Below, piece after piece: positions 14,608 through 47,008 of a DNA stretch of 48,368 nucleotides; the stretch's first letter is position 1; each line of letters starts with the position of its first letter. The stretch is from positions 1 through 48,368 of the IMG/VR virus record IMGVR_UViG_3300013132_000077; one strand, written 5' to 3'. A program made the position numbers and the translations under genes. The notes under the pieces were generated by a model, which saw only the letters and a list, made by a program, of their open reading frames with translations, made no database searches and had not been told where the DNA came from. Origin of the DNA: a virus.

Positions 14608-15078
14608 TCATGCCGCGTCTTTTTTGCCTAAGTATATGTAGAATCTGCTTATCTGGCCTTTTATGGTATGCTGTCGCATGGATAGTTCTACGCACGAGTC
14701 TATCAGCTCGGAGATTGTCTTTCCCATCGGAGTTTCCATCCTTCTGCATTTTAGAGTAAGCTTCTCCACTATACCCTCTTTGAGAATGAAACTCATACCC
14801 TTTATGTGAATTGCGGCCTTGCTCAGGCTTATGGCGTACGACAATGATTCTTCTATGCTGTCTTCCGCTGTCGCTAGAAGAGAAAGAGAGTCTATTTCGA
14901 ACTGGACTTTCCTTCCGGGATTCAGCAGGCTGGCCAGCTTTATCTCTCTTTTGGAAGAGATCCATTGCTGGTATTTGGATAGCATATCTTCGTATTGGTC
15001 GATATTGGATCCTTCCTGTTCGACTTCCCATTCGAACTCGCCGACATGGTCTTCTCCTTCAAGAAACATCTGTCCCAT
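14608..15078 (-). CDS. Protein of unknown function downstream of RNase R
   Basis: 156 residues, acidic N-terminus (MGQMFLEGEDHVGEFEWEVE) then helical, ending RFYIYLGKKDAA. I recognise no motif. It starts 2 bases after the RNase R stop and shares its terminator, so the two are probably one transcript and could act together. Confidence 0.65.
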   Translation of the reverse strand: MGQMFLEGEDHVGEFEWEVEQEGSNIDQYEDMLSKYQQWISSKREIKLASLLNPGRKVQFEIDSLSLLATAEDSIEESLSYAISLSKAAIHIKGMSFILKEGIVEKLTLKCRRMETPMGKTISELIDSCVELSMRQHTIKGQISRFYIYLGKKDAA

Positions 15079-19698: not shown

Positions 19699-21426
19699 AT
19701 GTCACACATTAGAATAGACAAGGCGAAAGCCACTAAGAAATGGGCACCGGTTCTTGAGAACATGGGTGTTACAGGTGATAGAGTAGAATGGATGGCAGAA
19801 TATGCTGAGTTCCACTCAATCAACGAGAACGCGTACGTTAACGCATCTAACGTAGCTGGTATGGGCGGTGTATTCGCTGCGCAGCCTGCTGCATACGCTG
19901 GTAACACAATCGGCGGTTCTTTGGCGACTGCCAATTCAGTAGGTCAAATCGGTTCAGGAGATGTTGGTCAAAACCTTCTTCCAGTTGCGATGAAGATCGC
20001 TGCTCAGACTATCGGTCTTGATCTAGTTGCTGTTAAGCCAACTCCAGGTCCGAAAATCGACCTTCTTTACATCGATTTCCAATACGATGATACAAGATTA
20101 GGAAACTCTGACGAAAGACCACAGGTTTTCAAATTGAACACTACTAACCCTACTACAGCTGCTCTTGCTGCTGCTATGAAGAGTGGTAACGGTGCTTCTA
20201 TCTCTGAAGTAACAGGCGGACTTAGAAACGGAAGATTCTTCTACTCTATCAACGCTACAGGTACTGCATCTTTGGGTGCTACCGTATCTACAGACGAACC
20301 TAGCAGCAAAGCAGGTGTTGTTGAGTTCCTAGGATTCTCTAGGATCGACGGATTCCCAATCTTCAGGGCTTTCAGACAAGCAAACACTGCTCACGGTGTT
20401 GTAGGTTCTGCTAACACTGCTTGGGCTTTCGACTCACAAAGAAACACTTTTGGTGCTACTTCTTCCATGGTTTCTCAAATCGAAAGAATCGCAGGCGTTG
20501 CAATATCCGCTGCTACTATCGAATTGGTTTCCGCATTAGAAGACCATATCCCAGGATTCTCTACTAACTTTGGAGGAGTTCCTTCAGGCGCTGCACAAGG
20601 TGCATACCCAATGTCAAGGCAAGAAGACGATGATTCTTATGCAGGAGTTATCGGTCCTAAAATCTCTTCTAAAACTATCGCGGTTGGTACTATCGAAGTA
20701 TCTTCAGCTCTTAGAAGAACTGAGATCGAAGACATCAAGGCTAACACAGGTATGGATATCGTTCAAAAAATGGAATCTATCCTTGTTAACGAATTGTCTC
20801 AAACAATCTCTAAGCAAATCGTTGCTAAAATCTTCGAAATGGGTTCTCTTAACAGAAAGTCTGCTCCTTTGAAATCAGGATCTTCTTACTCTGATACAGC
20901 TGCTTGTACACTTTTCGACCTTGATACATCTTACGTTTCAACAATGGCCGGTGGTGAGACTACTCACGCAGTTCAAAGAAAGCTTATCACTAAGATAGCT
21001 CATGCTTCCAACTACATCGCGACTGAAGGACGTGTAGGTCCTGCTCAGTACCTTGTAACAAACGGAGGTCTTGCTGCTGCTCTTCAAGACATCGCTGGAT
21101 ACACAATCAACCCAGTTAAGTCTAAATTAAACGGACAAGGTCAATTATACCCTGTAGGTTCAATAGGCGACATCGCTATCTATGTTGATCCATACATGAA
21201 GTATAACGACAACAGGATCGTATTGGGTAGAAAGAACAACCCAGACCAACCAGGTATCATCTTCGTACCATACTTGATGGCTCAGTCTATCTCAGTTATC
21301 TCTGAGGCAACTTTCGCACCAAGGATGTTGTTGAGATCTAGATATGCGGTTGCTGAAATCGGATGGTTCCCACAAAAACAATTCATGACTCTAGTAGTTA
21401 CTGACGCTGCTCAGTACCTCAACTAA
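19699..21426 (+). CDS. gp23: Major capsid protein gp23
   Basis: 575 residues (T4: 521). It has the T4/HK97-type capsid order: a helical N-terminal arm, GQIGSGDVGQNLLPVAMKI, GLDLVAVKPTPGPKIDLLY and RRTEIEDIKANTGMDIVQKM. Near the end are ATEGRVGPAQYLVTNG, YVDPYMKYNDNRIVLGRK and SEATFAPRMLLRSRYAVAEI. A likely maturation cut lies after INE (41-43, SINE/NAY), an [IL]xE site like that used by T4 gp21. Codons are more strongly biased than in neighbours, as expected for the most abundant protein. Two shorter paralogues of its C-terminal part are at 27159 and 41586. Confidence 0.95.
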   Translation: MSHIRIDKAKATKKWAPVLENMGVTGDRVEWMAEYAEFHSINENAYVNASNVAGMGGVFAAQPAAYAGNTIGGSLATANSVGQIGSGDVGQNLLPVAMKIAAQTIGLDLVAVKPTPGPKIDLLYIDFQYDDTRLGNSDERPQVFKLNTTNPTTAALAAAMKSGNGASISEVTGGLRNGRFFYSINATGTASLGATVSTDEPSSKAGVVEFLGFSRIDGFPIFRAFRQANTAHGVVGSANTAWAFDSQRNTFGATSSMVSQIERIAGVAISAATIELVSALEDHIPGFSTNFGGVPSGAAQGAYPMSRQEDDDSYAGVIGPKISSKTIAVGTIEVSSALRRTEIEDIKANTGMDIVQKMESILVNELSQTISKQIVAKIFEMGSLNRKSAPLKSGSSYSDTAACTLFDLDTSYVSTMAGGETTHAVQRKLITKIAHASNYIATEGRVGPAQYLVTNGGLAAALQDIAGYTINPVKSKLNGQGQLYPVGSIGDIAIYVDPYMKYNDNRIVLGRKNNPDQPGIIFVPYLMAQSISVISEATFAPRMLLRSRYAVAEIGWFPQKQFMTLVVTDAAQYLN

Positions 21427-21899: not shown

Positions 21900-23333
21900 A
21901 TGGCAGAAAAAAAGCATAAGATGGAGTTTTCAAAAGAGCTCGAGCAGATTTTAGCAAAGCTGGAAAAGCAGGGAAACTACGTCGCGTGGGAGCTGCTCCT
22001 TATGAACGATCCTGACGCGGGGTCAGAACTTGAGGACATAATACACAAATCTGGCGTCGAGAGAGTAGACGTTTCTGAAAAGGACTACAGCTTTGTCGTG
22101 GAGACCACTGACGGAAAGAAGACCGAGATGAAGATCGGCGCCTTCATAAGAAAGTTCTTCGGCGACTTCTATGCGAACCATGAGATAGAGAAATTCTCCA
22201 ACCTATACAACATTGCAAAAGGTGGTGGCAAGAAGAAAGGAGAGCCTATAAAGGTCGGCAAGTTCTCGTATGATCCTAAAGACGTTAGAAAGACCTTTCT
22301 TTCTCTGGTGACCAAGACCTATCCTCATGGACATGAGGATGAGCTGCTTGAGTTCCTTCCTGAGCTCAAAAAAGACCGCGTCGGAAACTACTACGTCATG
22401 ATAGGCGGAGATAAGCCTGAAACCATGTTCACTTCGCATCTAGACACCGCGGATAGATCGCAGAGGACTACATATCTCTTCAGCGACAAAGAAGGAGAAG
22501 ACGAAATCATAGTGACTGATGGAACTTCGGTGCTGGGCGCCGACGACAAGTCTGGCGTGACCGTAATGCTTTATATGATGGCACATGGAATATCCGGGCT
22601 ATACTATTTCTTCATAGGCGAAGAAAGAGGCGGCATCGGATCGCACGCGCTTGCGGACATCTTCGAAGAGGTCCCTTACCTTCACAATCTAAAGAGATGC
22701 GTTTCTTTCGACAGGAGAAACTACCATTCCATAATAACTTCCCAGATGGGTGGCGAATGCTGCTCGGATGAGTTCGCGGAAGCGCTTTGCGACGCGTACA
22801 ACCAGCATGGAATGAGCATGAAGCCAGACAATACTGGAATATATACAGACTCTGCTTCCTTCATAGACGATATACCTGAGTGCACCAACGTCTCCGTTGG
22901 ATACTTCAACGAGCATACCGGTAACGAGAAGCAGAACATATCTTTCCTGGAGAGGCTCTGCAAGGCATCTGTCTCCATAGACTGGGAATCTCTTCCGACC
23001 AAAAGGTCTCTAGAGGAGATCATCTCGTTCAGGGCGACTGAGAAGGCGGCGCGCTCGAGATATAAAGACCTGCTTGATGAGTTCAAGTCTGCCGCGCCTT
23101 CTTTGGATCGGCTTGTTTCCGTGGAATATGGAAAGACCTATGTCTGCTTCGACCTCGAAGGGTCGGACCTCGCCACGATACATGATACGCTGGAATCCAT
23201 ATTGGCGGTTATGAAGACCACCAACAATCGTCCTGAAATCGCTAAGTCTGTTCATACCTACGAACACAACTGGAGGGCAGGAAACTGTCCTGTGGAATTC
23301 GACGAGACCTATCTGAAGATAAGAATAGAATAA
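21900..23333 (+). CDS. M20/M28-like zinc metallopeptidase (copy 1)
   Basis: 477 residues. A 120-residue N-terminal extension precedes the peptidase core. The zinc and catalytic residues are in FTSHLDTAD (His180, Asp182), VLGADDKSG (Asp215/216) and GEERGGIGS (Glu241, Glu242); a later His in FNEHTG completes the set. The core is strongly similar to the protein at 44135, which lacks the extension. It probably cuts short peptides or acts as an aminopeptidase; a virion role is also possible. The extra C-terminal 110 residues (from FRATEKAARSRYKDLL) are unassigned. Confidence 0.85.
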   Translation: MAEKKHKMEFSKELEQILAKLEKQGNYVAWELLLMNDPDAGSELEDIIHKSGVERVDVSEKDYSFVVETTDGKKTEMKIGAFIRKFFGDFYANHEIEKFSNLYNIAKGGGKKKGEPIKVGKFSYDPKDVRKTFLSLVTKTYPHGHEDELLEFLPELKKDRVGNYYVMIGGDKPETMFTSHLDTADRSQRTTYLFSDKEGEDEIIVTDGTSVLGADDKSGVTVMLYMMAHGISGLYYFFIGEERGGIGSHALADIFEEVPYLHNLKRCVSFDRRNYHSIITSQMGGECCSDEFAEALCDAYNQHGMSMKPDNTGIYTDSASFIDDIPECTNVSVGYFNEHTGNEKQNISFLERLCKASVSIDWESLPTKRSLEEIISFRATEKAARSRYKDLLDEFKSAAPSLDRLVSVEYGKTYVCFDLEGSDLATIHDTLESILAVMKTTNNRPEIAKSVHTYEHNWRAGNCPVEFDETYLKIRIE

Positions 23334-24542: not shown

Positions 24543-25070
24543 ATGATAATAGACAGATTCGAAGGAAGATGGAGGTTTCTTTCCAATTTCCATCCGTGTG
24601 AAGTAGAGCATCAGGGAATAACATATCCTTCGGTGGAGCACTACTATGTCGCCATGAAGTGCAACAACGAGCAGATGCTCTATGGGAGGCACTATACCAT
24701 AGGAGACTTTCGCGAGATGATCGCCAACACTCCAAGTCCTGCATTAGTCAAGTCTATAGGGCAGAAGATGAAAGTAAGAAAAGACTGGGATGAGAAAAAG
24801 CTCGAGTTCATGCTATATGGAGTGAGAGAGAAATTTAAAGATCCTGACTTAAAAGAACTTTTGTTGAGTACCGAAGATTTTTCTTTAGTTGAATCGAATG
24901 ATTGGAATGATAAATTCTGGGGCGTGTGTCAAGGAAAAGGGTTAAACCATTTAGGCAGGATACTGATGAAGGTCAGAAAGGAAATCTCGGAAGAGCAGTC
25001 GTTGCCTTATCAGGAAGATAGGCCAGCGTCGCTTGAGGATTTTTTCAGACAGGCTGGACAGGCAAAATAG
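24543..25070 (+). CDS. NADAR-family N-glycosidase (YbiA/DUF1768)
   Basis: 175 residues. It has the NADAR signature: RWRFLSNFHPCEVEHQGITY, then YPSVEHYYVAMK and the final WGVCQGKGLNHLGRILMKVR. Family members cut N-glycosidic bonds, acting on riboflavin-pathway intermediates or removing ADP-ribose from guanine bases. A phage copy may therefore undo ADP-ribosylation by host defence. The segment 24830-24955 is visibly more AT-rich than the rest of the gene, like a recombination patch. The next gene starts 2 bases after its stop. Confidence 0.85.
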   Translation: MIIDRFEGRWRFLSNFHPCEVEHQGITYPSVEHYYVAMKCNNEQMLYGRHYTIGDFREMIANTPSPALVKSIGQKMKVRKDWDEKKLEFMLYGVREKFKDPDLKELLLSTEDFSLVESNDWNDKFWGVCQGKGLNHLGRILMKVRKEISEEQSLPYQEDRPASLEDFFRQAGQAK

Positions 25071-25072
25071 CA

Positions 25073-25300
25073 ATGGACGAGGAGATATACAGGATATCGA
25101 TGTCTGATGGGGTGTACGAGGTCTATATAGGCTTCTTTTCCAAGATGAAAGTCGCTAGACAGGACATTGTGGGCGATACTTGGTTCTTCTCCATAGAAAA
25201 CGGGGATGGAACTCTTTTATCCTTTTCTATATATGATGGATATTGGCAGCGCGCGAAGGCACATCTTCGAGAAATTAAGATAGATTCTGTGCTTGAGTGA
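25073..25300 (+). CDS. Small protein, unknown
   Basis: 75 residues, predicted beta-rich (ISMSDGVYEVYIGFFSKMKV). No motif recognised. It is coupled to NADAR by a 2-base gap and so may act with it. Confidence 0.6.
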   Translation: MDEEIYRISMSDGVYEVYIGFFSKMKVARQDIVGDTWFFSIENGDGTLLSFSIYDGYWQRAKAHLREIKIDSVLE

Positions 25301-25367: not shown

Positions 25368-26207
25368 ATGAGAAAACTTATAGAACTTACAGAGAAACAA
25401 GAACAGGACCTATTCGAGAGAAGAGAGGCCGGTGAGAAAAGGAAAGACCTGATAAAAGAATTTGCGGTTTCCGATAGAGAATACAAAAAAATAATACTCA
25501 AACACGGCGGCGTACTGAAGAGTAAAGTGCAGAAGTACAACTTTAACGAGAGCTACTTCGAAAACATCGACACTGAAGACAAAGCTTACTTTCTCGGTTT
25601 CATCACTGCGGATGGATCTGTTAATGATGATTATGCGAAATTTGTAAAAATAAAACTGAATGCCGACGATTTCGGTATTCTGGAAGATTATATTTCATAT
25701 ACGAAATATGAAGGACCTGTTTATAAACACAAAAATGGAAAGTATTGTGAAGTTGCTTTATCGGGTAAAAAAGTCGTAAGCGATTTGAATAAACTGGGTA
25801 TACTACCAAACAAAACACATACCGTTGAGTTTCCTAAAATACCCGAGAATTTAGTACGTCACTATATGCGTGGTGTTTTCGACGGTGATGGTTGCATCTC
25901 AATACACAAAAAAAGAGAAGGATCTCGCGATACCTCTGATAGAGGTCAAGTGAACCTCTGTTCAGCAAGTAAGAACTTCATAGAGGAATACGTTGATCGT
26001 TTACAAGTATGTTGTGGTATAACAAAGAATAAAATAAGGAATCCGAAGGGTTCCTACTATGTCATCGACTGGGGTTCTTTTGCGGATATAGAGAAGTTTT
26101 ATTATTTCTTCTACTCTAACGCCAACGTCTACCTGAAAAGGAAAAAAGAAACTTTCGACATCGCTATCGGTATAAGTAAGACAAAGACTAGATATAGAAA
26201 AAAGTAA
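25368..26207 (+). CDS. LAGLIDADG homing endonuclease
   Basis: 279 residues, two LAGLIDADG motifs: LGFITADGS (76-84) and MRGVFDGDG (167-175), whose acids are the metal ligands. Such a monomer cuts an asymmetric site of about 20 bp. The N-terminal 55 residues are a helical, HTH-like basic part. It is free-standing between two genes, not in an intron or intein as far as can be seen. It is more AT-rich than its neighbours, so it probably arrived recently. A TATATAATG sequence precedes the ATG. Confidence 0.88.
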   Translation: MRKLIELTEKQEQDLFERREAGEKRKDLIKEFAVSDREYKKIILKHGGVLKSKVQKYNFNESYFENIDTEDKAYFLGFITADGSVNDDYAKFVKIKLNADDFGILEDYISYTKYEGPVYKHKNGKYCEVALSGKKVVSDLNKLGILPNKTHTVEFPKIPENLVRHYMRGVFDGDGCISIHKKREGSRDTSDRGQVNLCSASKNFIEEYVDRLQVCCGITKNKIRNPKGSYYVIDWGSFADIEKFYYFFYSNANVYLKRKKETFDIAIGISKTKTRYRKK

Positions 26208-26229: not shown

Positions 26230-27162
26230 ATGAGTGTTATAAGTTATTTTGGTGGCAAGGCCGCCTTTCAATCGTTCATAACTCCAAAGATTCCATTCAA
26301 AGAGTGCAAAACATATCTAGAGCCTTTCTCTGGATCTTTCGCCATATATCTGGATTCCAAGATGGAGTTCGAAAACGTGATATTCAACGACCGCAACAGG
26401 CATCAGGCCAACCTGATGAGATGCTGCGCTTCTCCGCAAGAATTCCTCGTAGAGCTGAAGGCTCTCTTGGCGCCAGGCGGGCTTCTGCATACTGTCGAGA
26501 CGTCGGTCGACAAGAAGTGGGACTTCTACAAGGCGATCTACCACAGATACGTTAAGAACGAATTCCTGGACAACATGGACTTCGAGATAGGAGACTTCAA
26601 GGTCGCCGCCATCTACGCGTTCCTCATCACTTCTTCGTTCTCGAGCGTCTATCCTAGAGGCGGCGGATTCACCGGATTCAAGAAGAAGAAAGACAAGCTC
26701 AACCTCTCTATACTTATAAACAAGCTAGAGAAGAACAAATACACCGACAGGCTGCAGAACATCACGGAGTTCAACAACATGGACTTCGAGGAAGTCATAC
26801 TCAAGCACGACTCGGAAGACACGTACATCTATCTGGATCCTCCATATGCTCGATTCAACGACGTCAAGAACGACGACGATGGCAGACGCCTGTTCTGGTA
26901 TGGGTGCGACGACGAGAACACGTTTGGAGTCGCTTCTCACAGGAGGCTTCTCGAGCTTCTGAAGACCACTAAGTCTAGATGGTCTCTGTCATACTACTAC
27001 TTCCCTCTTCTCGAAGAGATACTTCCGAAAGACAAATATGTCTGGACTTCTAAAGAGTTCCACAGGCCGTCCGCTGTGATAAAGACAGAAGGCGTGGAGA
27101 AGGAGAAAGGCGTCGAGCTGCTCATCATGAACTACGATCCCGAAACAGGAGAAAGAGTATGA
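26230..27162 (+). CDS. dam: D12-class DNA adenine N6-methyltransferase (Dam-like)
   Basis: 310 residues. It opens with SYFGGKAAF (AdoMet-binding motif X), EPFSGSFAIY (motif I), and has the catalytic motif YLDPPYARF (DPPY). An insert around 205-220 (NDVKNDDDGRRLFWYGCDDE) follows DPPY. It methylates adenine, target unknown, probably to guard phage DNA from restriction. The stop overlaps the start of the capsid-like gene (ATGA). Confidence 0.9.
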   Translation: MSVISYFGGKAAFQSFITPKIPFKECKTYLEPFSGSFAIYLDSKMEFENVIFNDRNRHQANLMRCCASPQEFLVELKALLAPGGLLHTVETSVDKKWDFYKAIYHRYVKNEFLDNMDFEIGDFKVAAIYAFLITSSFSSVYPRGGGFTGFKKKKDKLNLSILINKLEKNKYTDRLQNITEFNNMDFEEVILKHDSEDTYIYLDPPYARFNDVKNDDDGRRLFWYGCDDENTFGVASHRRLLELLKTTKSRWSLSYYYFPLLEEILPKDKYVWTSKEFHRPSAVIKTEGVEKEKGVELLIMNYDPETGERV

Positions 27163-27908
27163 TCGACGATATAAGGAAGGCAATAGAAGAAGGCAGGTTC
27201 GACATCTTCGAGCCTGCCGGATTCGTTAAGAAGCGAGCTTGCGGAAATCCTGAGAGGCTCAGGATTTCGTTCGGAGTTCCGATAGACGCATCGGCAGTCT
27301 TCGGCCTGAACGTCGACATGGTCGCGGAGTTCTTGGCGCAGCTCAGGAGAGGCGTTTCGGACCAATGTCACAAGAAGATATTCGGTTCGCTGTCTGGTTC
27401 CGAGAGATATTCGGTTCGCGACCTCAGAGGAATTCCGGAATTTATGGTGGCGAAAGAGCTGATTTCCGAGATAAAGAATTCCGGATTCAGGTATGTGCTG
27501 GCTGGATCCAGGATCGCCACCATTCTCCAGGACTCCAGCGAGTTCGTCATATCTTCCGATTCTCTTTCTTCTATATCGAAGAGCAATTCCAACGTGCATA
27601 TGATAGGAAGCATATACGGCTACCAGGACGTGTATCTGGACCCCTATATGAAGTGGAACGACTCTCGCGTTATCCTATTCTCCGAAGCGAACGCCCTCGC
27701 TTCTGGATTCAAGCTGGCCGAGGCAGCGGACGAAGCGACCTTCGCGCCGAGGATAATAATAGAGATGTCTCTAGAGCATTCTGTTGGAGATTCGATGGTG
27801 CTTTATGTGAGAGACGACGAGAATCCTGACCTAGATCCTGGATTGATAGCGCGGATGAGAGACCAGAAAATAGACAATCTGCTAGATGAAGAAGATAAGA
27901 GAAGCTGA
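27159..27908 (+). CDS. Shortened paralogue of the major capsid protein C-terminus (copy A)
   Basis: 249 residues. GSIYGYQDVYLDPYMKWNDS and RVILFSEANA, then DEATFAPRIIIEMSLEHSV match the capsid segments GSIGDIAIYVDPYMKYNDNR and SEATFAPRMLLRSRYAV. The start (KAIEEGRFDIFEPAGF) and the end (DLDPGLIARMRDQKIDNLLD) differ. The N-arm and most of the E-loop/A-domain of gp23 are absent, so it cannot be a full capsomer. It could be a vertex or decoration protein, or it could interfere with other phages' capsids. It is coupled to the methylase by ATGA. Confidence 0.75.
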   Translation: MIDDIRKAIEEGRFDIFEPAGFVKKRACGNPERLRISFGVPIDASAVFGLNVDMVAEFLAQLRRGVSDQCHKKIFGSLSGSERYSVRDLRGIPEFMVAKELISEIKNSGFRYVLAGSRIATILQDSSEFVISSDSLSSISKSNSNVHMIGSIYGYQDVYLDPYMKWNDSRVILFSEANALASGFKLAEAADEATFAPRIIIEMSLEHSVGDSMVLYVRDDENPDLDPGLIARMRDQKIDNLLDEEDKRS

Positions 27909-28113
27909 TTTTCAGATATTCAAGAAAGAGAGCGAGAAAGAGCTGGGCGCTGACCTAGAAGGCGTCACGAGGCTCGAAAGGCTCGTTCTGGTGGACCAGA
28001 AAGACGGAAAGGACTGGGAAGTCACATTGTATGACGGAAAGCTCTATATCGAGCCTTACGAGGAGGTGGACAAGAGAGAATACAGAATAAGCAAAGCAAT
28101 AGATGAGGACTGA
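27886..28113 (+). CDS. Small protein, unknown
   Basis: 75 residues, charged, with a beta segment WEVTLYDGKLYIEPYE. It overlaps the capsid-like gene by 23 bases and the next gene by 11, as in tightly packed phage operons. No motif recognised. Confidence 0.55.
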   Translation: MKKIREADFQIFKKESEKELGADLEGVTRLERLVLVDQKDGKDWEVTLYDGKLYIEPYEEVDKREYRISKAIDED

Positions 28114-30577: not shown

Positions 30578-32836
30578 CTATTGGAAGTATAGAGTGCATG
30601 CGAATCTTATGGCGGTCGCGGTTCCTGTTGGGTTCGCGGGCATTGTGGATATGTCCGCGGTGTTTGTTATTCCAAACGCGATGTCCGATATTCCCACGTC
30701 GTATACGGTCCTCCATGATGTTCCTGCGGGATAGTGTCCTACTACTATATCTTCTCCCGCTGTTAGACTAAGGCTTTGTCCAGGCGACGCTGTCAGGTTT
30801 ATCACGTTTGGTCCTATTCCGCAAAGCGCGCTTCCTTGTCCTATAAGAGTTTTCGTTCCTGTTAGAGTTCCTCTGTATATTCCAAAAATTACCGTGTCTG
30901 ATCCTGAGAATCCCCACAACTTTGCTTTGTTTATGGTTCCAGTCACTTCCGATATTGTTTGATAGTAGTATTGCGTCGTCGCCGCAGTCGGGGCGCTATC
31001 GCATGCCGATACGCTCATCGGGGAAAAGCATATTCCATTTGATATTCCTGAAGTTCCTGAAGATCCATCGATTCCGCTCGTTCCTGAAGTTCCGTTCTTT
31101 CCAGAGGTTCCTGAAGTTCCGCTTGTTCCGGAGATTCCAGAAGTTCCATTGATTCCAGAAGTTCCTGAAGTTCCGCTTGTTCCTGAAGTTCCGCTTGTTC
31201 CGGAGATTCCTGAAGTTCCATCGATTCCAGAAGTTCCTGAGGATCCATCACCTCCAGTTGGTCCCAACTGTGTGTACATTACTTGTGTGAAAGTCGATAT
31301 AACGCTTGGTGTTGCTGGATGTTCCGGATTTATACCTGATGGTAAATATTCTATTGAAACATTTGTGCTATCGCTGTGCCACCATAGTTCTACATAGTCG
31401 TTATGGTTAATTGATGTTCCTACATAATTAACGGTTGCGACGGTATATCCAAACTCTGTGGAGTTTTTTCTAGCAGGCACGTGAAATCTCGTGGTGCTGT
31501 TTGGATAATCAGAACCATTATATTTTAACCAAATATCGGCATAGTGAATTTCATTATCAATATTTTTCAATTGAATAGAATATATCATTGTATAAGTTCC
31601 AGGATTGCTTATTACAATTGATCCAGTTCCAATTATTGAAAATCCTGATGATCCTAAATCTGTATTTATAGCGACTATTTGCGTTTGGCCGGGTGCTAAG
31701 AATGGTTGATCAGTCGTATCTGCGAAATTTCCATAATATCCCAAAGCTCCGCCTGCACCATTAATTCCAGATGTCCCAGAAGTCCCGTCGATTCCAGATG
31801 TTCCAGAAGTCCCGTCGATTCCTGAAGTCCCGGAGGTCCCGTCGATTCCTGAAGTCCCAGAAATCCCTGAAGTCCCAGAGGTTCCGTCGATTCCAGATGT
31901 CCCAGAAATCCCGTCGATTCCAGATGTCCCAGAAGTCCCGTCGATTCCTGAAGTTCCAGAAGTCCCGTCGATTCCTGAAGTCCCAGATGTTCCAGAAGTC
32001 CCGTCGATTCCTGAAGTCCCAGAGGTTCCGTCGATTCCAGAAGTCCCAGAAGTTCCAGATGTGCCGTCGATTCCAGAAGTCCCAGAGGTTCCGTCGATTC
32101 CTGAAGTCCCAGAAATCCCTGAAGTCCCAGAAATCCCTGAAGTTCCAGAAATCCCTGAAGTTCCAGAAATCCCTGAAGTTCCAGAAATCCCTGAAGTTCC
32201 AGAAGTCCCAGAGGTTCCGTCGATTCCTGAAGTCCCAGAAATCCCTGAAGTCCCAGAAATCCCTGAAGTCCCAGAAATCCCTGAAGTTCCAGAAATCCCT
32301 GAAGTTCCAGAAGTCCCAGAGGTTCCGTCGATTCCAGATGTTCCAGAAGTCCCGTCGATTCCAGAAGTCCCAGAAGTCCCAGAAATCCCTGAAGTCCCAG
32401 AAATCCCAGAGGTTCCGTCGATTCCCGAAGTTCCAGAAGTCCCAGAAGTCCCGTCGATTCCAGATTTCCCAGAAGTCCCAGAAGTCCCGGATGACCCAGA
32501 TTTCCCTATTAGCATTTTTTGCCAATGTGTTGAGTCTTCTTCTGGCGATTGCCATGGCGATGATCCTTCTAATGTCTTTATATTAAGATATGCGGATTCG
32601 TTATATGTGACCAGGTCATAATAGAAATACATCATCATAGAATCCCATTCTCCTTGGAATACTATCGAGTTTCCTTGTGGGCCGGTCGGGCCCTGTGGTC
32701 CTATCGATGCTGTTCCGATTCCAATTTCTAGAAGGTTTCCAAATCCGTCATAGTATGTGTTTGGATTTCCAAGAACGACCTGCACGAGTCTCCCATAGGT
32801 TTGCGAGGCGGTAGATCCAGTAAGATTGTAGCTCAT
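30578..32836 (-). CDS. Collagen-like tail fibre or adhesin with GTSG repeats
   Basis: 752 residues. An N-terminal domain (1-110) includes a short GPQGPTGPQG collagen piece and a CBM5/12-like pattern (YYDLVTYNESAYLNIKTLEG). A long G-x-x repeat of GTSG/GIDG/GISG follows (about 111-357). Then come a jelly-roll-like domain (FSIIGTGSIVISNPGTYTMI...), a second repeat block (about 525-600) and a C-terminal domain with FSPMSVSACDSAPT. Trimeric collagen-like shafts with knobs are usual in host-binding fibres. Ser and Thr make up close to half of the repeat positions, an unusual density of possible O-glycosylation sites. Divergent late-type motifs lie just upstream. Confidence 0.85.
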   Translation of the reverse strand: MSYNLTGSTASQTYGRLVQVVLGNPNTYYDGFGNLLEIGIGTASIGPQGPTGPQGNSIVFQGEWDSMMMYFYYDLVTYNESAYLNIKTLEGSSPWQSPEEDSTHWQKMLIGKSGSSGTSGTSGKSGIDGTSGTSGTSGIDGTSGISGTSGISGTSGTSGIDGTSGTSGIDGTSGTSGTSGISGTSGISGTSGISGTSGISGTSGIDGTSGTSGTSGISGTSGISGTSGISGTSGISGTSGISGTSGIDGTSGTSGIDGTSGTSGTSGIDGTSGTSGIDGTSGTSGTSGIDGTSGTSGIDGTSGTSGIDGISGTSGIDGTSGTSGISGTSGIDGTSGTSGIDGTSGTSGIDGTSGTSGINGAGGALGYYGNFADTTDQPFLAPGQTQIVAINTDLGSSGFSIIGTGSIVISNPGTYTMIYSIQLKNIDNEIHYADIWLKYNGSDYPNSTTRFHVPARKNSTEFGYTVATVNYVGTSINHNDYVELWWHSDSTNVSIEYLPSGINPEHPATPSVISTFTQVMYTQLGPTGGDGSSGTSGIDGTSGISGTSGTSGTSGTSGTSGINGTSGISGTSGTSGTSGKNGTSGTSGIDGSSGTSGISNGICFSPMSVSACDSAPTAATTQYYYQTISEVTGTINKAKLWGFSGSDTVIFGIYRGTLTGTKTLIGQGSALCGIGPNVINLTASPGQSLSLTAGEDIVVGHYPAGTSWRTVYDVGISDIAFGITNTADISTMPANPTGTATAIRFACTLYFQ
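31765..32506 (-). repeat. Long collagen-coding tandem repeat
   Basis: 9-bp-based repeats (plus strand GAAGTTCCA, GAAATCCCT, GTCGATTCC) over about 740 bp. Longer blocks recur with few changes, for instance around 32100-32300, a sign of recent expansion. A second, shorter block is at 31040-31255. Confidence 0.9.
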
Positions 32837-41560: not shown

Positions 41561-41586
41561 AAAAGAGAGCTTAGGCTCTCTTTTTC
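41561..41586. terminator. Bidirectional terminator
   Basis: AAAGAGAGC pairs with GCTCTCTTT around TTAG, with T-run; between convergent genes. Confidence 0.88.
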
Positions 41587-42326
41587 TATTTTATCCTGAA
41601 CCAGGCATACTGCCTTTCCCAGTCATGCGTCTCTTTTATGAAATATGTAGAGTCTGCGGTGCAGCTCACGCACATAAGGCCCGGATTGTCCATCCTTCCG
41701 CCTCTTGCCACTATGACCTTGTCTGGCTCCATCTTCGGCTCCAATATCACTACCATGTTCATCGAAAGACCATGCTCCTGGCATAGTTCCATCCATTTCC
41801 AGCAGTCCGGTCCTGCTATGACGGCAGTAGCCGGTCCTATCCTTCCCTCGACCGCGATAAGGTTGCTGGCCATCATTATCTTGGCGATTATCCTCCTGGC
41901 GTTTGCCATCTCGTTCTCGCTTTCGCTGAGATGTTCTCCGAAGCTCGATATGGCTATGTCTAGGCTGACAGGGCCATGGCATGCGCCTCTGGTGTTCTGG
42001 TCGAGGAAGCTGATCGCCTCGAAGTATGCTCGGTCTTCGTCTATATGCCGGGCGCTTGCCTGCACGATCATTATCCTCGGCGCTATGGTCGGAATCTCCG
42101 AAGAACCGAGTCCGATTCCGACTACTTCGTATTCCGAAGCGTCTTCGCTCACCTCGTCGAGAACGGTGTCTATCGCTAGGCTCCTGTTCTTCATCTTCTT
42201 CTCGAGCTTTTCCTTCTCGCTTTCGACTGCCATCGATATATAGCTGATGCTCAGCGCCGGGCCTACGCTCTTCGTGTGCTCGCTATAGTTGCATATGGCC
42301 TTGAGACTGTCTTTAGTAGTTGTCAT
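41586..42326 (-). CDS. Shortened paralogue of the major capsid protein (copy B)
   Basis: 246 residues. ARRIIAKIMMASNLIAVEGR and IGPATAVIAGPDCWKWME match the capsid stretch KLITKIAHASNYIATEGRVG, PAQYLVTNGG. PDKVIVARGGRMDNPGLMCV matches NRIVLGRKNNPDQPGIIFVP. The N-terminal 120 residues (SYISMAVESEKEKLEKKMKN) keep some of the capsid spine but not the arm. With copy A at 27159 this makes three gp23-type proteins of three lengths. The gene overlaps the glycosyltransferase by 14 bases. Possible roles: vertex protein, internal head part, or interference with foreign capsids. Confidence 0.7.
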   Translation of the reverse strand: MTTTKDSLKAICNYSEHTKSVGPALSISYISMAVESEKEKLEKKMKNRSLAIDTVLDEVSEDASEYEVVGIGLGSSEIPTIAPRIMIVQASARHIDEDRAYFEAISFLDQNTRGACHGPVSLDIAISSFGEHLSESENEMANARRIIAKIMMASNLIAVEGRIGPATAVIAGPDCWKWMELCQEHGLSMNMVVILEPKMEPDKVIVARGGRMDNPGLMCVSCTADSTYFIKETHDWERQYAWFRIK

Positions 42327-43074
42327 ATTTGTATTTCATTCCCGATCTAGGTGCGGTGGTCCTTATCACTTTCTGCAAATCATCTCTTTCCATTTCCGAT
42401 AGCTTCTTTAGAAGATGCAGGTTTCTCTGATACCACTTCATGTCTGGCGCTGGCCTGTCGTGATGCAGGTGGTAGCATTTCGCTTCCTGCTCGTGCCATG
42501 TTAGGAACTGCTTCACTTTTATAGATTGGAAGTCGTCTTCTCCGCCCCATCCTATGAAGTCTTCGTGCCATCCTCCGATCCTTGCTATCGCGTCTCTCCG
42601 GAATATGCATATTCCTCCGCACATAGGCACCTTCTGTATGTCTGTCTCTCCTCTTCCTGGTCTGGATATCTTAGATATCGTTTCCAGGCTTTGCGAAGAT
42701 TCCTGAGGAGTCAGGTCTATGACGGAATTGTATGGATTCACCATCTCGTACTTTTCGATCATCTTGACCGCCGATACGAACTTTTCCGAATCCATTATGA
42801 GATCCGAGTCGCCGAAGACTATTATTCCGCTGTTCGCCATTTTCATTCCTATGTTGAATCCCCATGCCTTGTTGAACGGCATCTTCGACTTCACGAAAAC
42901 ATGCTTGCATGCTAGGTGCAGATCTGCTATTTTTGAGTGAGAATCCTGCTCTACCACTATTATTTCTGCCCCGGTGAATCGGTTTATCCATTCGAGCGTC
43001 CTCTTCAAGTTGTTCAGCCTCTCGTTGGAATGCCTGTAGCTTATTATATAAGTGAATGAGTAAGGAAATTTCAT
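42313..43074 (-). CDS. Glycosyltransferase, GT2/GT7-like
   Basis: 253 residues. SFTYIISYRHSNERLNNLKR starts a GT-A fold; IVFGDSDLIM has the DxD-like metal site; GGWHEDFIGWGGEDDFQSIK is the C-terminal motif of galactosyltransferase-type enzymes. Donor and acceptor are unknown. It is separate from the 34-38 kb cluster but may serve the same glycan. Confidence 0.82.
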   Translation of the reverse strand: MKFPYSFTYIISYRHSNERLNNLKRTLEWINRFTGAEIIVVEQDSHSKIADLHLACKHVFVKSKMPFNKAWGFNIGMKMANSGIIVFGDSDLIMDSEKFVSAVKMIEKYEMVNPYNSVIDLTPQESSQSLETISKISRPGRGETDIQKVPMCGGICIFRRDAIARIGGWHEDFIGWGGEDDFQSIKVKQFLTWHEQEAKCYHLHHDRPAPDMKWYQRNLHLLKKLSEMERDDLQKVIRTTAPRSGMKYKYDNY

Positions 43075-43141: not shown

Positions 43142-43531
43142 ATGAAATTGGTCGGCAGGTCTGAAAAGGTCTATTTTCCTTCGCTCGGAGATAGTTTGTT
43201 AAGCGCCAAGATAGATACTGGCGCATATGGCAACAGCATGCATGCTGAAGAAGTTTCTGTTTCCGAAGGAGTGCTTAGCTTCGTTTCTATGGGCAGGCGG
43301 CATTCTTTTTCGGAATACAGGACGGTCTTGGTCAAGAACAGCTTTGGTGAGTCTCAAGAGAGATATTCCGTCGATGTCCCTATCTCGATAGGAGGCACCA
43401 CTTATCTTCTGGCGTTCTCCCTCGCAGACAGGAGCAGGCTGAAGCATCCAGTGCTCATAGGTCGCCGATTCCTCAGGAAGTTCGGCTATTTCGTAGACGT
43501 TAGAAAGAAAGACATAAATGATAAATCTTAG
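43142..43531 (+). CDS. Retropepsin-like aspartic protease (RimB/ATP-dependent zinc protease fold)
   Basis: 129 residues from the ATG at 43142 (an in-frame TTG lies upstream). LVGRSEKVYFPSLGDSLLSA, then KIDTGAYGNSMHAEEV carries the aspartic protease D-T-G-A. PVLIGRRFLRKFGYFVDV is the second conserved block. These proteins are annotated as zinc proteases but fold like retropepsins; bacterial members sit beside RimK, which adds Glu to ribosomal protein S6. No RimK is seen here. Confidence 0.8.
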   Translation: MKLVGRSEKVYFPSLGDSLLSAKIDTGAYGNSMHAEEVSVSEGVLSFVSMGRRHSFSEYRTVLVKNSFGESQERYSVDVPISIGGTTYLLAFSLADRSRLKHPVLIGRRFLRKFGYFVDVRKKDINDKS

Positions 43532-44063
43532 CCAGACAAACTACTTCACTGGAGAGATATCTCCCGTTTCTTCTGCTGTTTCCAAGATCGTGCAGTTCTT
43601 GGAAATAGACGGATCTAATCCTATATTCCTGACTCCTTCTATATCCAATCTTTCCAGCAATTCCAATACGATAGGGAAGTCGTGCACCATAGTGCCTAGA
43701 GTAGAATTCGCGGGAATCGCGGACTTCGACTATAAGCTCGCGGACAGAGGGCTGATGTTCAGATGCAACCTTATAGTCGCCGATTTGTGGCACCTCGACA
43801 GGACAGGAGTCGGAAACTACAGAAAGATGCTTGTGGAGACAGGCATAAGGCATATAATAATGGCGAGGGAATACCACTATTCCGAAAGTGAGGACGTCTC
43901 TGACTTCCACGTAGTCGTCAAATACGAAGGATCTATTCAGCTCGGATTCAAGTCCGAGACTACGATAACCGAAAAGAGGCAGAATTGGAAAGCCACTCTC
44001 GAAGAGCTGAAGAAAGGCTTCATAAGAGACCGCAGGCTAGACGGCCTTCTCGGAGAAGATTAG
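43518..44063 (+). CDS. Protein of unknown function
   Basis: 181 residues. SNLSSNSNTIGKSCTIVPRV and FAGIADFDYKLADRGLMFRC suggest a beta-rich enzyme-like fold; REYHYSESEDVSDFHVVVKY follows. No motif recognised. It overlaps the aspartic protease gene by 14 bases, so they are coupled. Confidence 0.6.
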   Translation: MINLSQTNYFTGEISPVSSAVSKIVQFLEIDGSNPIFLTPSISNLSSNSNTIGKSCTIVPRVEFAGIADFDYKLADRGLMFRCNLIVADLWHLDRTGVGNYRKMLVETGIRHIIMAREYHYSESEDVSDFHVVVKYEGSIQLGFKSETTITEKRQNWKATLEELKKGFIRDRRLDGLLGED

Positions 44064-44134: not shown

Positions 44135-45274
44135 ATGAGGATAACCAAAAAGTTCCTTTCTCTTACGAAAAAGACCTACCCTCACGGAAAAGAGCGCGAG
44201 CTCATATGCCATCTCCCATCCGGATACAAAGAAGACGGATTCGGCAACTTCTATCTGCAGATAGGAGACTCTCCTTCTACTATGTTCACTTGCCATCTAG
44301 ACACCGCGGACCGTTCGCAGTCCGAAGTGAGGCACGTCTTCCAGGGAAACATAATCAAGACAGACGGAAAGTCCATATTGGGAGCAGACGACAAAGCGGG
44401 AATGACCGTTATATTGTATATGATATCGAAAGGAGTCCCAGGCCTCTACTATTTCTTCGTAGGCGAAGAAGTAGGCTGTGTCGGTTCCAAGAAGGTCTCT
44501 GCGGCATGGCAGTCTCTTCCCTTCTCCGAGCATGTTACTAAAGTAGTATCCTTCGACCGAAGAGGCAACGAGTCCATCATAACACACCAGATGTTCGGCA
44601 GATGCTGCTCCGAATCTTTCGCGACAGAGCTTGCAAGCAGGCTGAACGCCGCAGGATGCGGGCTTTCTATGAGGCTCGACGACACGGGAATACTCACAGA
44701 CTCGGCCAAGTTCATGTCTATCGTTCCAGAGTGCACCAACATCTCCGTAGGATACCAGGCAGAGCACACTTTCGGGGAGTCTCAAGACATCGAGTTCTTG
44801 AAGAAGATAGCGAGAGCCGCTTCTCTGATAGACTGGGAGACTCTTCCGGCGACGAGAGACCCTAAAGTCGAAGACGACTGCGACTACTACGGATGGGGAT
44901 CCTTCGGCGGGTCTAGATACGACACCGGAAACTACTCGGACAAAGAGAGGGATTCCGACAAGTGGAAGGAAGAAAACTACACGCACGTCAAGCTGGATGG
45001 CAAGACTAAGAGAGTGTATATCTCGACTGATCAGATAGAAGAAGAGAAGGCTCTTATATACAAATGGCTCGGCGACCATCCAGAGTATTACGACATACAG
45101 TCTATCGTCTGGAACGGCAACTCTCTGTATTTCGAGTCGAGAAGCGGCGTTATGGAGTTCGTAGGGTCGAGATCCGAGCTGATGGACATGATTCCAGAGC
45201 TCGCGAGCGTTCCGAAGAGCGCCATATCCGAAGTCTTTCCTGGAAAGAGGAAGACCTTCATAAACTCTCTATAG
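44135..45274 (+). CDS. M20/M28-like zinc metallopeptidase (copy 2)
   Basis: 379 residues. MFTCHLDTAD (His54, Asp56), ILGADDKAG (Asp85) and VGEEVGCVGS (Glu111, Glu112) keep the zinc site, and SVGYQAEHT the last His. It lacks the 120-residue N-terminal extension of copy 1 at 21900 and differs after the core, with an acidic, Tyr-rich stretch (EDDCDYYGWGSFGGSRYDTG) and a small C-terminal alpha/beta domain. It has a host-type promoter element, while copy 1 follows a late-type site, so the two may act at different times. Confidence 0.85.
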   Translation: MRITKKFLSLTKKTYPHGKERELICHLPSGYKEDGFGNFYLQIGDSPSTMFTCHLDTADRSQSEVRHVFQGNIIKTDGKSILGADDKAGMTVILYMISKGVPGLYYFFVGEEVGCVGSKKVSAAWQSLPFSEHVTKVVSFDRRGNESIITHQMFGRCCSESFATELASRLNAAGCGLSMRLDDTGILTDSAKFMSIVPECTNISVGYQAEHTFGESQDIEFLKKIARAASLIDWETLPATRDPKVEDDCDYYGWGSFGGSRYDTGNYSDKERDSDKWKEENYTHVKLDGKTKRVYISTDQIEEEKALIYKWLGDHPEYYDIQSIVWNGNSLYFESRSGVMEFVGSRSELMDMIPELASVPKSAISEVFPGKRKTFINSL

Positions 45275-45277
45275 AAG

Positions 45278-45306
45278 AAAAGAGGCCATTTGGCCTCTTT
45301 TTTTTT
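45278..45306. terminator. Bidirectional terminator
   Basis: AAAGAGGCC pairs with GGCCTCTTT around ATTT, with T-run; between convergent genes. Confidence 0.88.
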
Positions 45307-45496
45307 ATCCTAGTATGATTCCAGGAGTCTTGTATTCCTTCTGAGATGAGATCTCGAGCATCTGGCTCGTAGTCAGCTCTCTCGGATTCCATCCTTTCTT
45401 CTTGGAATATTCGCTGATGAACTTCTCTCTGAGAAGCGTAGACTCTTCCGTGCTGATCGGATCGTTCTTGATCATCTTCATGTTCTTGTCTTCCAT
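45305..45496 (-). CDS. Small protein, unknown
   Basis: 63 residues: MEDKNMKMIKNDPISTEEST, then KKKGWNPRELTTSQMLEISS. WNPRELTTSQMLEI looks like an HTH-like or docking helix pair. A CCAATATATAAAAAC motif precedes the ATG on the minus strand. Confidence 0.6.
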   Translation of the reverse strand: MEDKNMKMIKNDPISTEESTLLREKFISEYSKKKGWNPRELTTSQMLEISSQKEYKTPGIILG

Positions 45497-45512
45497 GTCT
45501 TTTCTTTTGTTT

Positions 45513-46038
45513 TTATATATTGGATCTTAGCCATTCCACCTTTTCCATCTCTATCATAAGGCAGTTCGCGTCGGTGAAGAACTCGAATCCCAGCCTCTTC
45601 TTCACAACCGTGTCTCTTAGGCTCGACAGCTTCGTCTTCGCCATCGTGGAGAAAAGCTCTTCCTCAGGCGCCTGGAATCCAGGATCGTACTGCCTTAGCA
45701 GAAAATGTTCGTCGCTGAACTCCTCGTCCGAGAACTTCGCCATCAGCGCCAGGTCTGGCATGCACGCGAAGACCAGGCTGCCTCGGCACCGGATAGCCTT
45801 TCCTGTCGTCGAAGAAATCCTTGTATCTGTAGCTTCCTATCGTGCCCCTCCTGTCCGCGGAAAAGAACAGGCCAAAAGGCCCGAAGTTCGCGGCCTGCCT
45901 CCAGAGCAGGCTGTTGTCGAAAGAGAAATTCTTGCAGTTCTCTCTGAAGACGCGAAGGAATTCCTCTTCGTCTATCGACTTGGTCCTGGTCGGCGACTCT
46001 CTGTCCGCGAACTCCAGGAATTCTAAAATCTTCCTCAT
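45513..46038 (-). pseudogene. Gene with an apparent frameshift, unknown function
   Basis: Two overlapping minus-strand frames join well near 45780. The first (46038 down) gives MRKILEFLEFADRESPTRTK and on to FFDDRKGYPV; the second continues RGSLVFACMPDLALMAKFSD to the end VEWLRSNI. Removing one C in CCGGTGCCGAGG restores a protein of about 174 residues. Beyond the join the first frame becomes Arg/Pro/Gly-rich, as expected for an out-of-frame read. It may be a broken gene, a sequencing error or a programmed shift. Late-type motif upstream. Confidence 0.6.
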
Positions 46039-46041
46039 ATA

Positions 46042-46053
46042 GGTATATATTAA
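46042..46053 (-). promoter_or_regulatory. Late-type motif TTAATATATACC
   Basis: Minus strand, a few bases before the ATG at 46038. Confidence 0.5.
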
Positions 46054-46076
46054 GGATATAATCCGTATATTAGCGT

Positions 46077-46532
46077 ATGGAAAAGCAGCTAAAAAACTCA
46101 GACGCGCTGAAGTTCGTCTTCGCGGGAAACTCTACTGTCACGTTCTTCAACTCCGAGACTCAGAACAGGTTCACGTTCAAAGTCAAGAGATGCAAGGACA
46201 AAGATAAGCTGCTGTTCTTCGTCAGCGTATTGACCGGTCCTGGGCAATATTCCTATATGGGAACCTTCGCCAAAGGAAAGTATTCGCATGGAAAGAAGTC
46301 TGCCATGTCCGCTTCGGCGCAGTCCGCCAAAGTATTTCCATACGTGATCGACAAGCTTAGAGAAGGAACGCTTCCTTCGCAAGTAGAGATATGGCACGAA
46401 GGCGCTTGCGGAAAATGCGGTCGCCAGCTTACCGTTCCCGAGTCTATCGAGACCGGCATCGGCCCGGAGTGCGCGAAGTCTCTTTCCAAAGAGGAGAAGA
46501 GAGACATGGTACTTTCTAAGATATTGGGATGA
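46077..46532 (+). CDS. DUF6011 zinc-ribbon protein
   Basis: 151 residues. The C-terminal ACGKCGRQLTVPESIETGIG, PECAK is the DUF6011 zinc motif (CxxC ... C), common in phage proteins that bind nucleic acid or partner proteins. The N-terminal 100 residues form a beta-rich part (FVFAGNSTVTFFNSETQNRF). Its stop overlaps the next start. Confidence 0.75.
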   Translation: MEKQLKNSDALKFVFAGNSTVTFFNSETQNRFTFKVKRCKDKDKLLFFVSVLTGPGQYSYMGTFAKGKYSHGKKSAMSASAQSAKVFPYVIDKLREGTLPSQVEIWHEGACGKCGRQLTVPESIETGIGPECAKSLSKEEKRDMVLSKILG

Positions 46533-47008
46533 TGATAGTCTTCACCATACTGCAGTCCGCGATAATAGTCTTCTCGGTCATATACACCGGCCGCAGAATG
46601 AAGAAGTGTGAGCCTATTTCCTGGAAAGTGAAGAAAGGCATGAGATGCTATTCCTGCGCCGCGCCTCTTTGCAGCGATGCGGAAGAGACGGCCGCTAGGC
46701 TGTTCTCCGAAACGGAAGAATTCCGCCTGTGCAAGGCGTGCGAACGAGAAGAGAAGCTAGGCGTTGCGCTCGGATCCAAAAAGACGAAATACATCAACAG
46801 ATTTAAGAAGTTCTGCCATTCCGACAAATCCTACAAGATCAACATATACTTCGCGATGGGGCTGTTCGCCTGCATAATTCTCTCGGTGCTCGGAAAGGCG
46901 TTCTGGAAGACAGACTTCTATGGCATACTTTCTTTCTTCGCCAACGCGATCTACTGGGGATTATTCGTATACAGGTCTAAAATCTGCTTCGAGGAGGAAT
47001 CGAAGTAA
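46529..47008 (+). CDS. Membrane protein with Cys pairs
   Basis: 159 residues. Transmembrane segments at about 3-20 and two near 105-150 (YFAMGLFACIILSVLGKAFW; ILSFFANAIYWGLFVY). Between them are CYSCAAPLC and LCKACE, likely a cytoplasmic zinc-binding part. Coupled to the DUF6011 gene by ATGA. Role unknown. Confidence 0.65.
   Translation: MMIVFTILQSAIIVFSVIYTGRRMKKCEPISWKVKKGMRCYSCAAPLCSDAEETAARLFSETEEFRLCKACEREEKLGVALGSKKTKYINRFKKFCHSDKSYKINIYFAMGLFACIILSVLGKAFWKTDFYGILSFFANAIYWGLFVYRSKICFEEESK

Follow-up and report, generated by a model that had tools for sequence, protein, structure and literature searches.

A minimal, fast-diverging capsid paralogue in a Dam-linked cassette and lineage-specific, mostly C-terminal tags in huge phages

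What role might a shortened relative of a phage's major capsid protein play when it is encoded directly beside a DNA methyltransferase? The question is raised by gene A (27159..27908, +; 249 aa), which lies in a 48,368-bp stretch (hereafter the window) that constitutes a whole IMG/VR virus record. An earlier note, made from the sequence of the window, had described A as a truncated capsid paralogue coupled to a Dam methylase—a “half-capsid” protein that could occupy vertices, act inside the head or poison the assembly of other phages. The window phage is a huge phage near LR756502 (642 kb) and LR745206 (635 kb). Its major capsid protein (MCP; gp23 family, 575 aa; 19699..21426, +; Pfam Gp23 E 2.6e-28) shares 73–74% identity with the MCPs of LR745206 and LR756502, and 51–52% with the proteins from LR756504 (636 kb) and LR756501 (735 kb). 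We take these four genomes to be members of Mahaphage, a clade of the huge-phage study published in 2020. Excerpts of that study place all five genomes >634 kb in Mahaphage, with Bacteroidetes as predicted hosts (PMC7162821); its main text does not name LR745206, and the assignment is ours.

To avoid bias, related loci were fetched by MCP instead of by A, and the best 80 of 215 matches were retained, 47 of them with at least 9.5 kb of sequence downstream. The A profile matched 22 times in these 80 loci and 21 matches were true A; the one dropped (L279) is a C-terminal MCP piece in a locus from which the whole MCP ORF is absent. Identical A proteins were counted once, leaving 18 distinct loci. 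ORFs were called greedily as the longest non-overlapping frames per piece, with pieces mostly of 20 kb, so that any gene running from one piece into the next drops out and some of the short ORFs are perhaps false. LR756502 and LR745206 were read entirely; the sequence read amounted to 200 kb of LR756504 in earlier tag analyses and 600 kb in later ones, about 250 kb and later about 650 kb of LR756501, 300 kb of LR756500, 280 kb of phiKZ, 400 kb of Lak-A2 (TAG translated as a residue) and 15 kb of T4 initially, 120 kb later. The window also encodes a 752-aa protein with long GTSGTSGID-type repeats (30578..32836, −) and two related peptidase genes (21900..23333 and 44135..45274), the first with a weak M28 match and located shortly downstream of the MCP.

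The capsid ancestry claimed for A is well founded. BLASTP against the window's MCP aligns A 111–201 with MCP 450–545 (31% identity, E 6e-11), profile–profile comparison of the A and MCP families extends over 153 columns (E 4.4e-19; MCP positions ~343–542), and PHROG 28442, the best PHROG of the MCP, matches A as well (E 6.6e-8). The capsid blocks reported earlier are present, i.e., YLDPYMKWNDSR for YVDPYMKxNDxR, together with ATFAPR, and Pfam Gp23 (PF07068) reaches 20.9 bits (E 2.7e-4), failing its gathering cut-off of 24.4. An AlphaFold2 model of A (seven sequences in the input; pLDDT 81, pTM 0.77), aligned to gp23 and gp24, shows a gp23-type fold: residues 17–222 of A (200 residues) align with residues 105–521 of gp23 from the unexpanded T4 head (Z 13.5), the second-best solved structure is gp24 (Z 12.5 over 204 residues), and other HK97-fold proteins, encapsulins included, rank below these two. 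Foldseek returns 123 matches for the model at E ≤0.001.

The model contains an HK97 fold with spine helix and P and A domains. The propeptide, N-arm and insertion domain have no counterpart in A, the E-loop is mostly missing as judged by length, and an extra C-terminal helix (aa 227–248) extends past the capsid fold; homology begins at MCP ~343 by profile, and the structural alignment at gp23 residue 105. The earlier description, that A lacks the N-arm and most of the core, is thus right about the arm and wrong about the core, given the 200 residues that align to gp23. As modelled, A is an HK97 core pared down to its minimum but whole. Of the earlier interpretation the gp23-type fold and the link to Dam stand, and the outcome named there as its refutation, a lack of similarity to the gp23 fold, did not materialise; the “half-capsid” does not stand.

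The link to Dam extends well beyond the window. The stop codon of the Dam-type, D12-class N6-adenine DNA methyltransferase gene (26230..27162, +; PF02086 MethyltransfD12 E 4e-20, cut-off passed) overlaps the start codon of A (ATGA), and Dam lies upstream of A on the same strand in 18/18 distinct loci (from the best 80 of 215), separated from it by −56 to +6 nt in 14 and by 165–792 nt in the remaining 4. In two lineages (L248, L264) Dam and A run opposite to the MCP and are still together. In 16 of these 18 loci Dam is preceded, on its own strand, by a NADAR-domain gene (24543..25070, +; Pfam NADAR E 2.1e-25) of the guanine de-ADP-ribosylation family (background in excerpts of PMC11125620), and between the two the window has a LAGLIDADG homing-endonuclease-like gene (25368..26207, +) that finds a match in only some relatives. 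This NADAR–Dam–A cassette and the C-terminal tag described below, both missed in the first reading, hold most of the information at the locus. Both complete genomes, LR756502 and LR745206, also encode A. Among the 47 MCP loci with at least 9.5 kb downstream (from the best 80 of 215), A is within reach in 16; in the other 31 it may be absent or located elsewhere. A scan of viral contigs with A alone found no relatives, and one with a three-sequence A alignment reached them.

Within this conserved arrangement, A itself diverges rapidly. Across the 18 loci (from the best 80 of 215), identity to the window is 24–37% for A vs 72–85% for MCP and 58–92% for Dam, with medians of 28% (A), 64% (Dam), 74% (MCP), 81% (protease) and, over 15 loci, 78% (portal); even in L216, one of the closest loci, Dam is 90% identical and A 37%. 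In five close pairs dN is 0.27–0.69 for A, 0.03–0.08 for Dam and 0.08–0.11 for MCP. The gene-wide dN/dS of A is 0.29–0.43 in the three close pairs with estimable dS (for A or Dam it could not be estimated in the other two), which indicates purifying selection that is weak but present. Together with the recurrence of A in relatives' genomes and loci, these values identify A as a gene and not a remnant. An MCP duplicate in decay that hitchhikes with Dam would fit the high divergence and the low Pfam score, but A keeps an open frame of 223–264 aa in the loci that bear it (from the best 80 of 215), its dN/dS is well under 1 and its tag is conserved, and we regard decay as having next to no probability. 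A is a hypervariable, functional-looking HK97-fold paralogue of the phage's own MCP.

The same divergence bears on whether A occupies vertices. T4 does have a single known full-length paralogue, gp24, as the earlier note said, and the rank of gp24 among the structural matches would suit a shrunken gp24 analogue, i.e., a vertex or size-determining minor capsid protein. Yet gp24 is full length (427 aa), whereas A is without N-arm, insertion domain and propeptide; A was not found near the MCP in 31/47 loci (from the best 80 of 215); and A diverges far faster than the MCP against which it would pack, which makes vertex occupancy less likely. We consider this role improbable. T4 Inh, a minor head protein of small size whose gene lies close to gene 24, was also tried as a relative of A and rejected (hhalign probability 0.1%, E 0.72, a weak test with Inh as a single sequence); Inh itself gave no Gp23 match.

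What distinguishes A from a plain capsid core is its C-terminus, RDQKIDNLLDEED. A ends in MRDQKIDNLLDEEDKRS and holds, within the predicted C-terminal helix, the core RDQKIDNLL (aa 234–242; 27858..27884, +). This core is one form of a tag with the consensus R[DE]xK[IL][DN]x[IL]L, found mostly at most 10 aa from the C-terminus of otherwise different proteins. In the window, a 75-aa orphan (25073..25300, +) ends in LREIKIDSVLE, a 181-aa orphan with tagged homologues (43518..44063, +) in IRDRRLDGLLGED, and a 151-aa orphan (46077..46532, +) in the weaker form KRDMVLSKILG (10.4 bits). A further 75-aa gene overlapping the end of A (27886..28113, +) has a degraded form in the window, KREYRISKAIDED, while its relatives end in the tag (e.g., KREYKLNKILK). 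A 156-aa orphan beside the portal gene (14608..15078, −) has an internal tag-like stretch, found also in LR756502 and LR745206. The MCP has no tag.

The enrichment of the tag at protein ends is pronounced. By regular expression, the motif lies at most 10 residues from the end in 57/1032 ORFs of LR756502 and 54/1013 of LR745206, with 1.3 expected from the internal rate in each. A weight matrix was initially trained and applied on the same genomes, an overlap answered by a held-out test: trained on LR745206, the matrix tags 114 of 1032 LR756502 ORFs (0.95 with shuffled ends, 1.28 at the internal rate) and, trained on LR756502, 109 of 1013 LR745206 ORFs (0.70 and 1.20), i.e., ~11% of ORFs in each genome. 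The corresponding counts are 4/65 ORFs in the window (0.00 and 0.11) and 45/1420 distinct ORFs in the best 80 of 215 MCP loci (1.15 and 2.65), where all 21 true A matches are tagged. Reciprocal-best pairs with a tag on either member number 45, and in 27 of them both are tagged; in some orthologues the ending RDxKLxxLGI stands in for the tag. Tagged LR756502 proteins are short (median 119 vs 145 aa), 57 of them yield only 2 Pfam and 3 PHROG families with one member each, and outside the tag the tagged proteins are mostly unrelated to one another.

Two other causes of this recurrence were considered and rejected. For gene-family expansion, a tagged same-genome paralogue was found for only 4/136 and 2/135 tagged ORFs once the last 22 residues were removed; in LR756504 and LR756500 the same count is 6/18 and 4/8. 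For a DNA-level cause in the 640-kb group (terminator, promoter or repeat), 116 of the 120 six-frame matches of at least 14 bits in LR756502 are in the gene frame, as are 116/125 in LR745206. Codon use in the tag tracks that of the genome in this group, with ATA over-used at position 8.

Other huge phages have tags of their own. LR756501 uses the unrelated DPYGEExW, with 82 copies of DPYGEE in 72/947 ORFs, up to four per protein and at the C-terminus in about half of these ORFs, and the motif is absent from the other genomes read (examples lie at 154863..158564, L152, and 44452..46983, L162). In one protein of 1233 aa the motif occurs four times, once ahead of a deaminase domain and three times in the stretch that separates this domain from a CCA-adding enzyme. 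The codons of DPYGEE are biased in LR756501 (CCT 53/82, TAC 59/82; 40 distinct 18-mers), which makes some DNA-level spread likely there. A third ending, RKxxI[NDE]xLL, occurs at the C-terminus of 27/893 LR756504 ORFs and internally in none, and a weak fourth in 8/413 LR756500 ORFs, both patterns being post hoc, i.e., written after the endings of those genomes had been viewed. The largest enrichment z is 35 in LR756502, 31 in LR745206, 24 in LR756504, 17 in LR756501 and 13 in LR756500; Lak-A2, phiKZ and T4 show no such ending enrichment (largest z 7–9) and no matrix matches. If each lineage has replaced the tag by an unrelated sequence, a private, fast-changing receptor would be implied. In open-access titles and abstract openings we found no account of this tag pattern among huge- or jumbo-phage C-terminal motifs or tags, unrelated usage only of the string DPYGEE, and no description of such MCP paralogues in jumbo phages.

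A is not the only capsid-derived protein to be tagged, a point in favour of a capsid link. Gene B (41586..42326, −; 246 aa), a second capsid-derived paralogue, is related to MCP ~414–517; its homologue in L010 exceeds the Gp23 cut-off (26.8 bits) and in several relatives it has a tag-like stretch at aa ~45–55. Its structure prediction (pLDDT 33) was left unused, a viral-contig scan with the B profile gave no matches, and no PADLOC model matched A or B. A glycosyltransferase-family gene (42313..43074, −) overlaps the start of B, in an order kept in LR756502 and LR745206. The MCP profile found further small MCP-like ORFs in five huge genomes, but the MCP alone in Lak-A2, PTm1, PAU and T4, and nothing in phiKZ. 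Own-lineage tags mark 61-aa and 75-aa MCP ends and an A-domain piece of 59 aa in the 640-kb pair; in LR756501 they mark MCP pieces of 101, 78 and 169 aa. In two differently tagged lineages, several MCP-derived fragments thus bear the local tag, which supports the capsid link.

On the contrary, four small MCP-like ORFs of LR756500 (a 462-kb phage) and several of LR756501 are untagged, which counts against a head address. Among the untagged are miniature MCP-like proteins of 169–196 aa (LR756501 276342..276932 and 565330..565899; LR756500 252195..252704), all three with a propeptide-like start, a spine-like helix and C-terminal strand segments. Four untagged short proteins (LR756502 80294..80539 and 542908..543423; LR745206 93266..93520 and 554784..555284) have in common the MCP ~30–90 region (GMGxVxxxQPxxLxGxT...GSGD), perhaps the region processed by the prohead protease. 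With MCP-like pieces partly tagged and partly untagged, the tag–capsid association, as judged from these counts, is frequent and not universal. Two further ORFs were noted: in a 408-aa ORF (LR756500 128896..130122, −; L125) a capsid segment like that of B is joined with a SIS sugar-isomerase domain, and a tagged 146-aa protein (LR756501 553796..554236, −) resembles the C-terminal part of relatives' tail-sheath-type protein.

The fold of A, its pairing with Dam, its hypervariability and its tag we hold, jointly, to be facts with high confidence. How they fit together is a matter of interpretation, and the reading we tentatively favour, while placing it well below an even chance, is that A is an accessory prohead-associated counter-defence protein and the tag a head address. 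The tag would bring tagged proteins to one common partner, the prohead core or the inside of the head being the likeliest, in the manner of the T4 capsid targeting sequence. With neither N-arm nor insertion domain, A may enter or line the prohead without joining the lattice, and may act with Dam and NADAR in shielding phage DNA from host attack, a logic like that of P1 Dar; its rapid divergence would then reflect an arms race with host defences. We favour this combination on the strength of that shared logic: according to excerpts of two sources, the T4 internal proteins are a diverse counter-defence set with only a capsid targeting sequence in common (PMC3012670), and P1 DarB enters the head via a targeting sequence (PMC9024508). 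The earlier suggestion that A acts inside the head is likewise compatible with a common targeting-like tag. Against a head address are the position of the tag, C-terminal or internal where the T4 sequence is N-terminal, the internal motifs in helicases and in the LR756501 deaminase/CCA-adding fusion (odd head cargo), the ClpA/B/C-type unfoldase that strongly tagged genomes also encode, and the presence of A in only 16/47 MCP loci with enough sequence downstream (from the best 80 of 215).

The internal motifs and the unfoldase invite a different partner, with the tag directing docking or fate at some other hub of the phage (a replication compartment or condensate, or the phage's own Clp-type unfoldase) and A as one client. 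The ClpA/B/C-type unfoldase is encoded in LR756502 (440544..442667), LR745206 (423224..425329), LR756504, LR756501 and the 476-kb contig of L010, i.e., in strongly tagged genomes, which makes a proteolysis signal possible; it is absent from LR756500, phiKZ, T4, PTm1 and PAU, and Lak-A2 has a partial match. Two small tagged proteins also resemble the UVR segment of this unfoldase. However, internal positions are ill-suited to a terminal degron, LR756501 has no ClpP match (LR756502 and LR745206 have two to three), and the tagging of capsid-derived fragments is left unexplained. We judge another hub unlikely, though a serious contender.

Counter-defence might also take the form of a decoy, A being a soluble MCP mimic that occupies capsid-recognising host immune sensors and diverges fast because the sensors do. 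In favour, A retains the A/P-domain core of the MCP without assembly arms, is hypervariable and neighbours NADAR and Dam, both readable as counter-defence; excerpts of published work describe capsid-sensing bacterial immunity in CapRel (PMC9712102) and a TIR system (PMC11312562). An A–MCP identity of only ~30% is low for a mimic, however, and the tag is left unexplained, and we think a decoy rather unlikely. The third of the earlier suggestions, a poison subunit that joins and spoils the capsid assembly of competing phages, would draw on the possibility that an armless subunit caps growing shells and a lineage-specific tag marks self, but the phage's own MCP would have to be spared; we regard it as very improbable.

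We would put at slightly under an even chance the broader statement that huge phages of the window's clade use lineage-specific, mostly C-terminal tags as an address for about one-tenth of their proteins, minimal or fragmentary capsid paralogues included, that each lineage swapped its tag for an unrelated sequence, and that A is, within an anti-defence cassette (NADAR–Dam–A), the protein with both tag and capsid fold and may anchor the other tagged proteins to the prohead. Should the tag direct packaging into the head, sequence alone would predict which of the hundreds of unknown huge-phage proteins enter the host by injection at infection; should it serve another hub, it would mark a sorting system so far undescribed, in phages that are among the largest known. 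In both cases it offers a concrete way into large sets of orphan genes, and A represents a capsid fold that a fast-evolving cassette has taken up alongside enzymes acting on DNA.

Among known systems, A has the same HK97 fold as T4 gp23 and gp24, and the DPYMKxND and ATFAPR blocks are found both in A and in the phage's own MCP. Yet gp23 and gp24 measure 521 and 427 aa against the 249 of A, which is without propeptide, N-arm and insertion domain, falls below the Pfam cut-off, is hypervariable and adds a C-terminal tag helix. The T4 internal proteins are likewise unrelated, diverse small proteins with one short common sequence. The T4 capsid targeting sequence is N-terminal, however, whereas the tag here is C-terminal and sometimes internal, marks ~11% of ORFs and is not the same from one related phage to another, and packaging is here a proposal. 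The P1 Dar proteins, as head-associated counter-restriction proteins, resemble A in logic, but A has a capsid fold and its neighbour Dam is a gene of its own. The cargo-loading peptides of encapsulins are short and C-terminal and load cargo into an HK97-fold shell; here, with no sequence resemblance claimed, it is the shell-fold protein A itself that bears the peptide.
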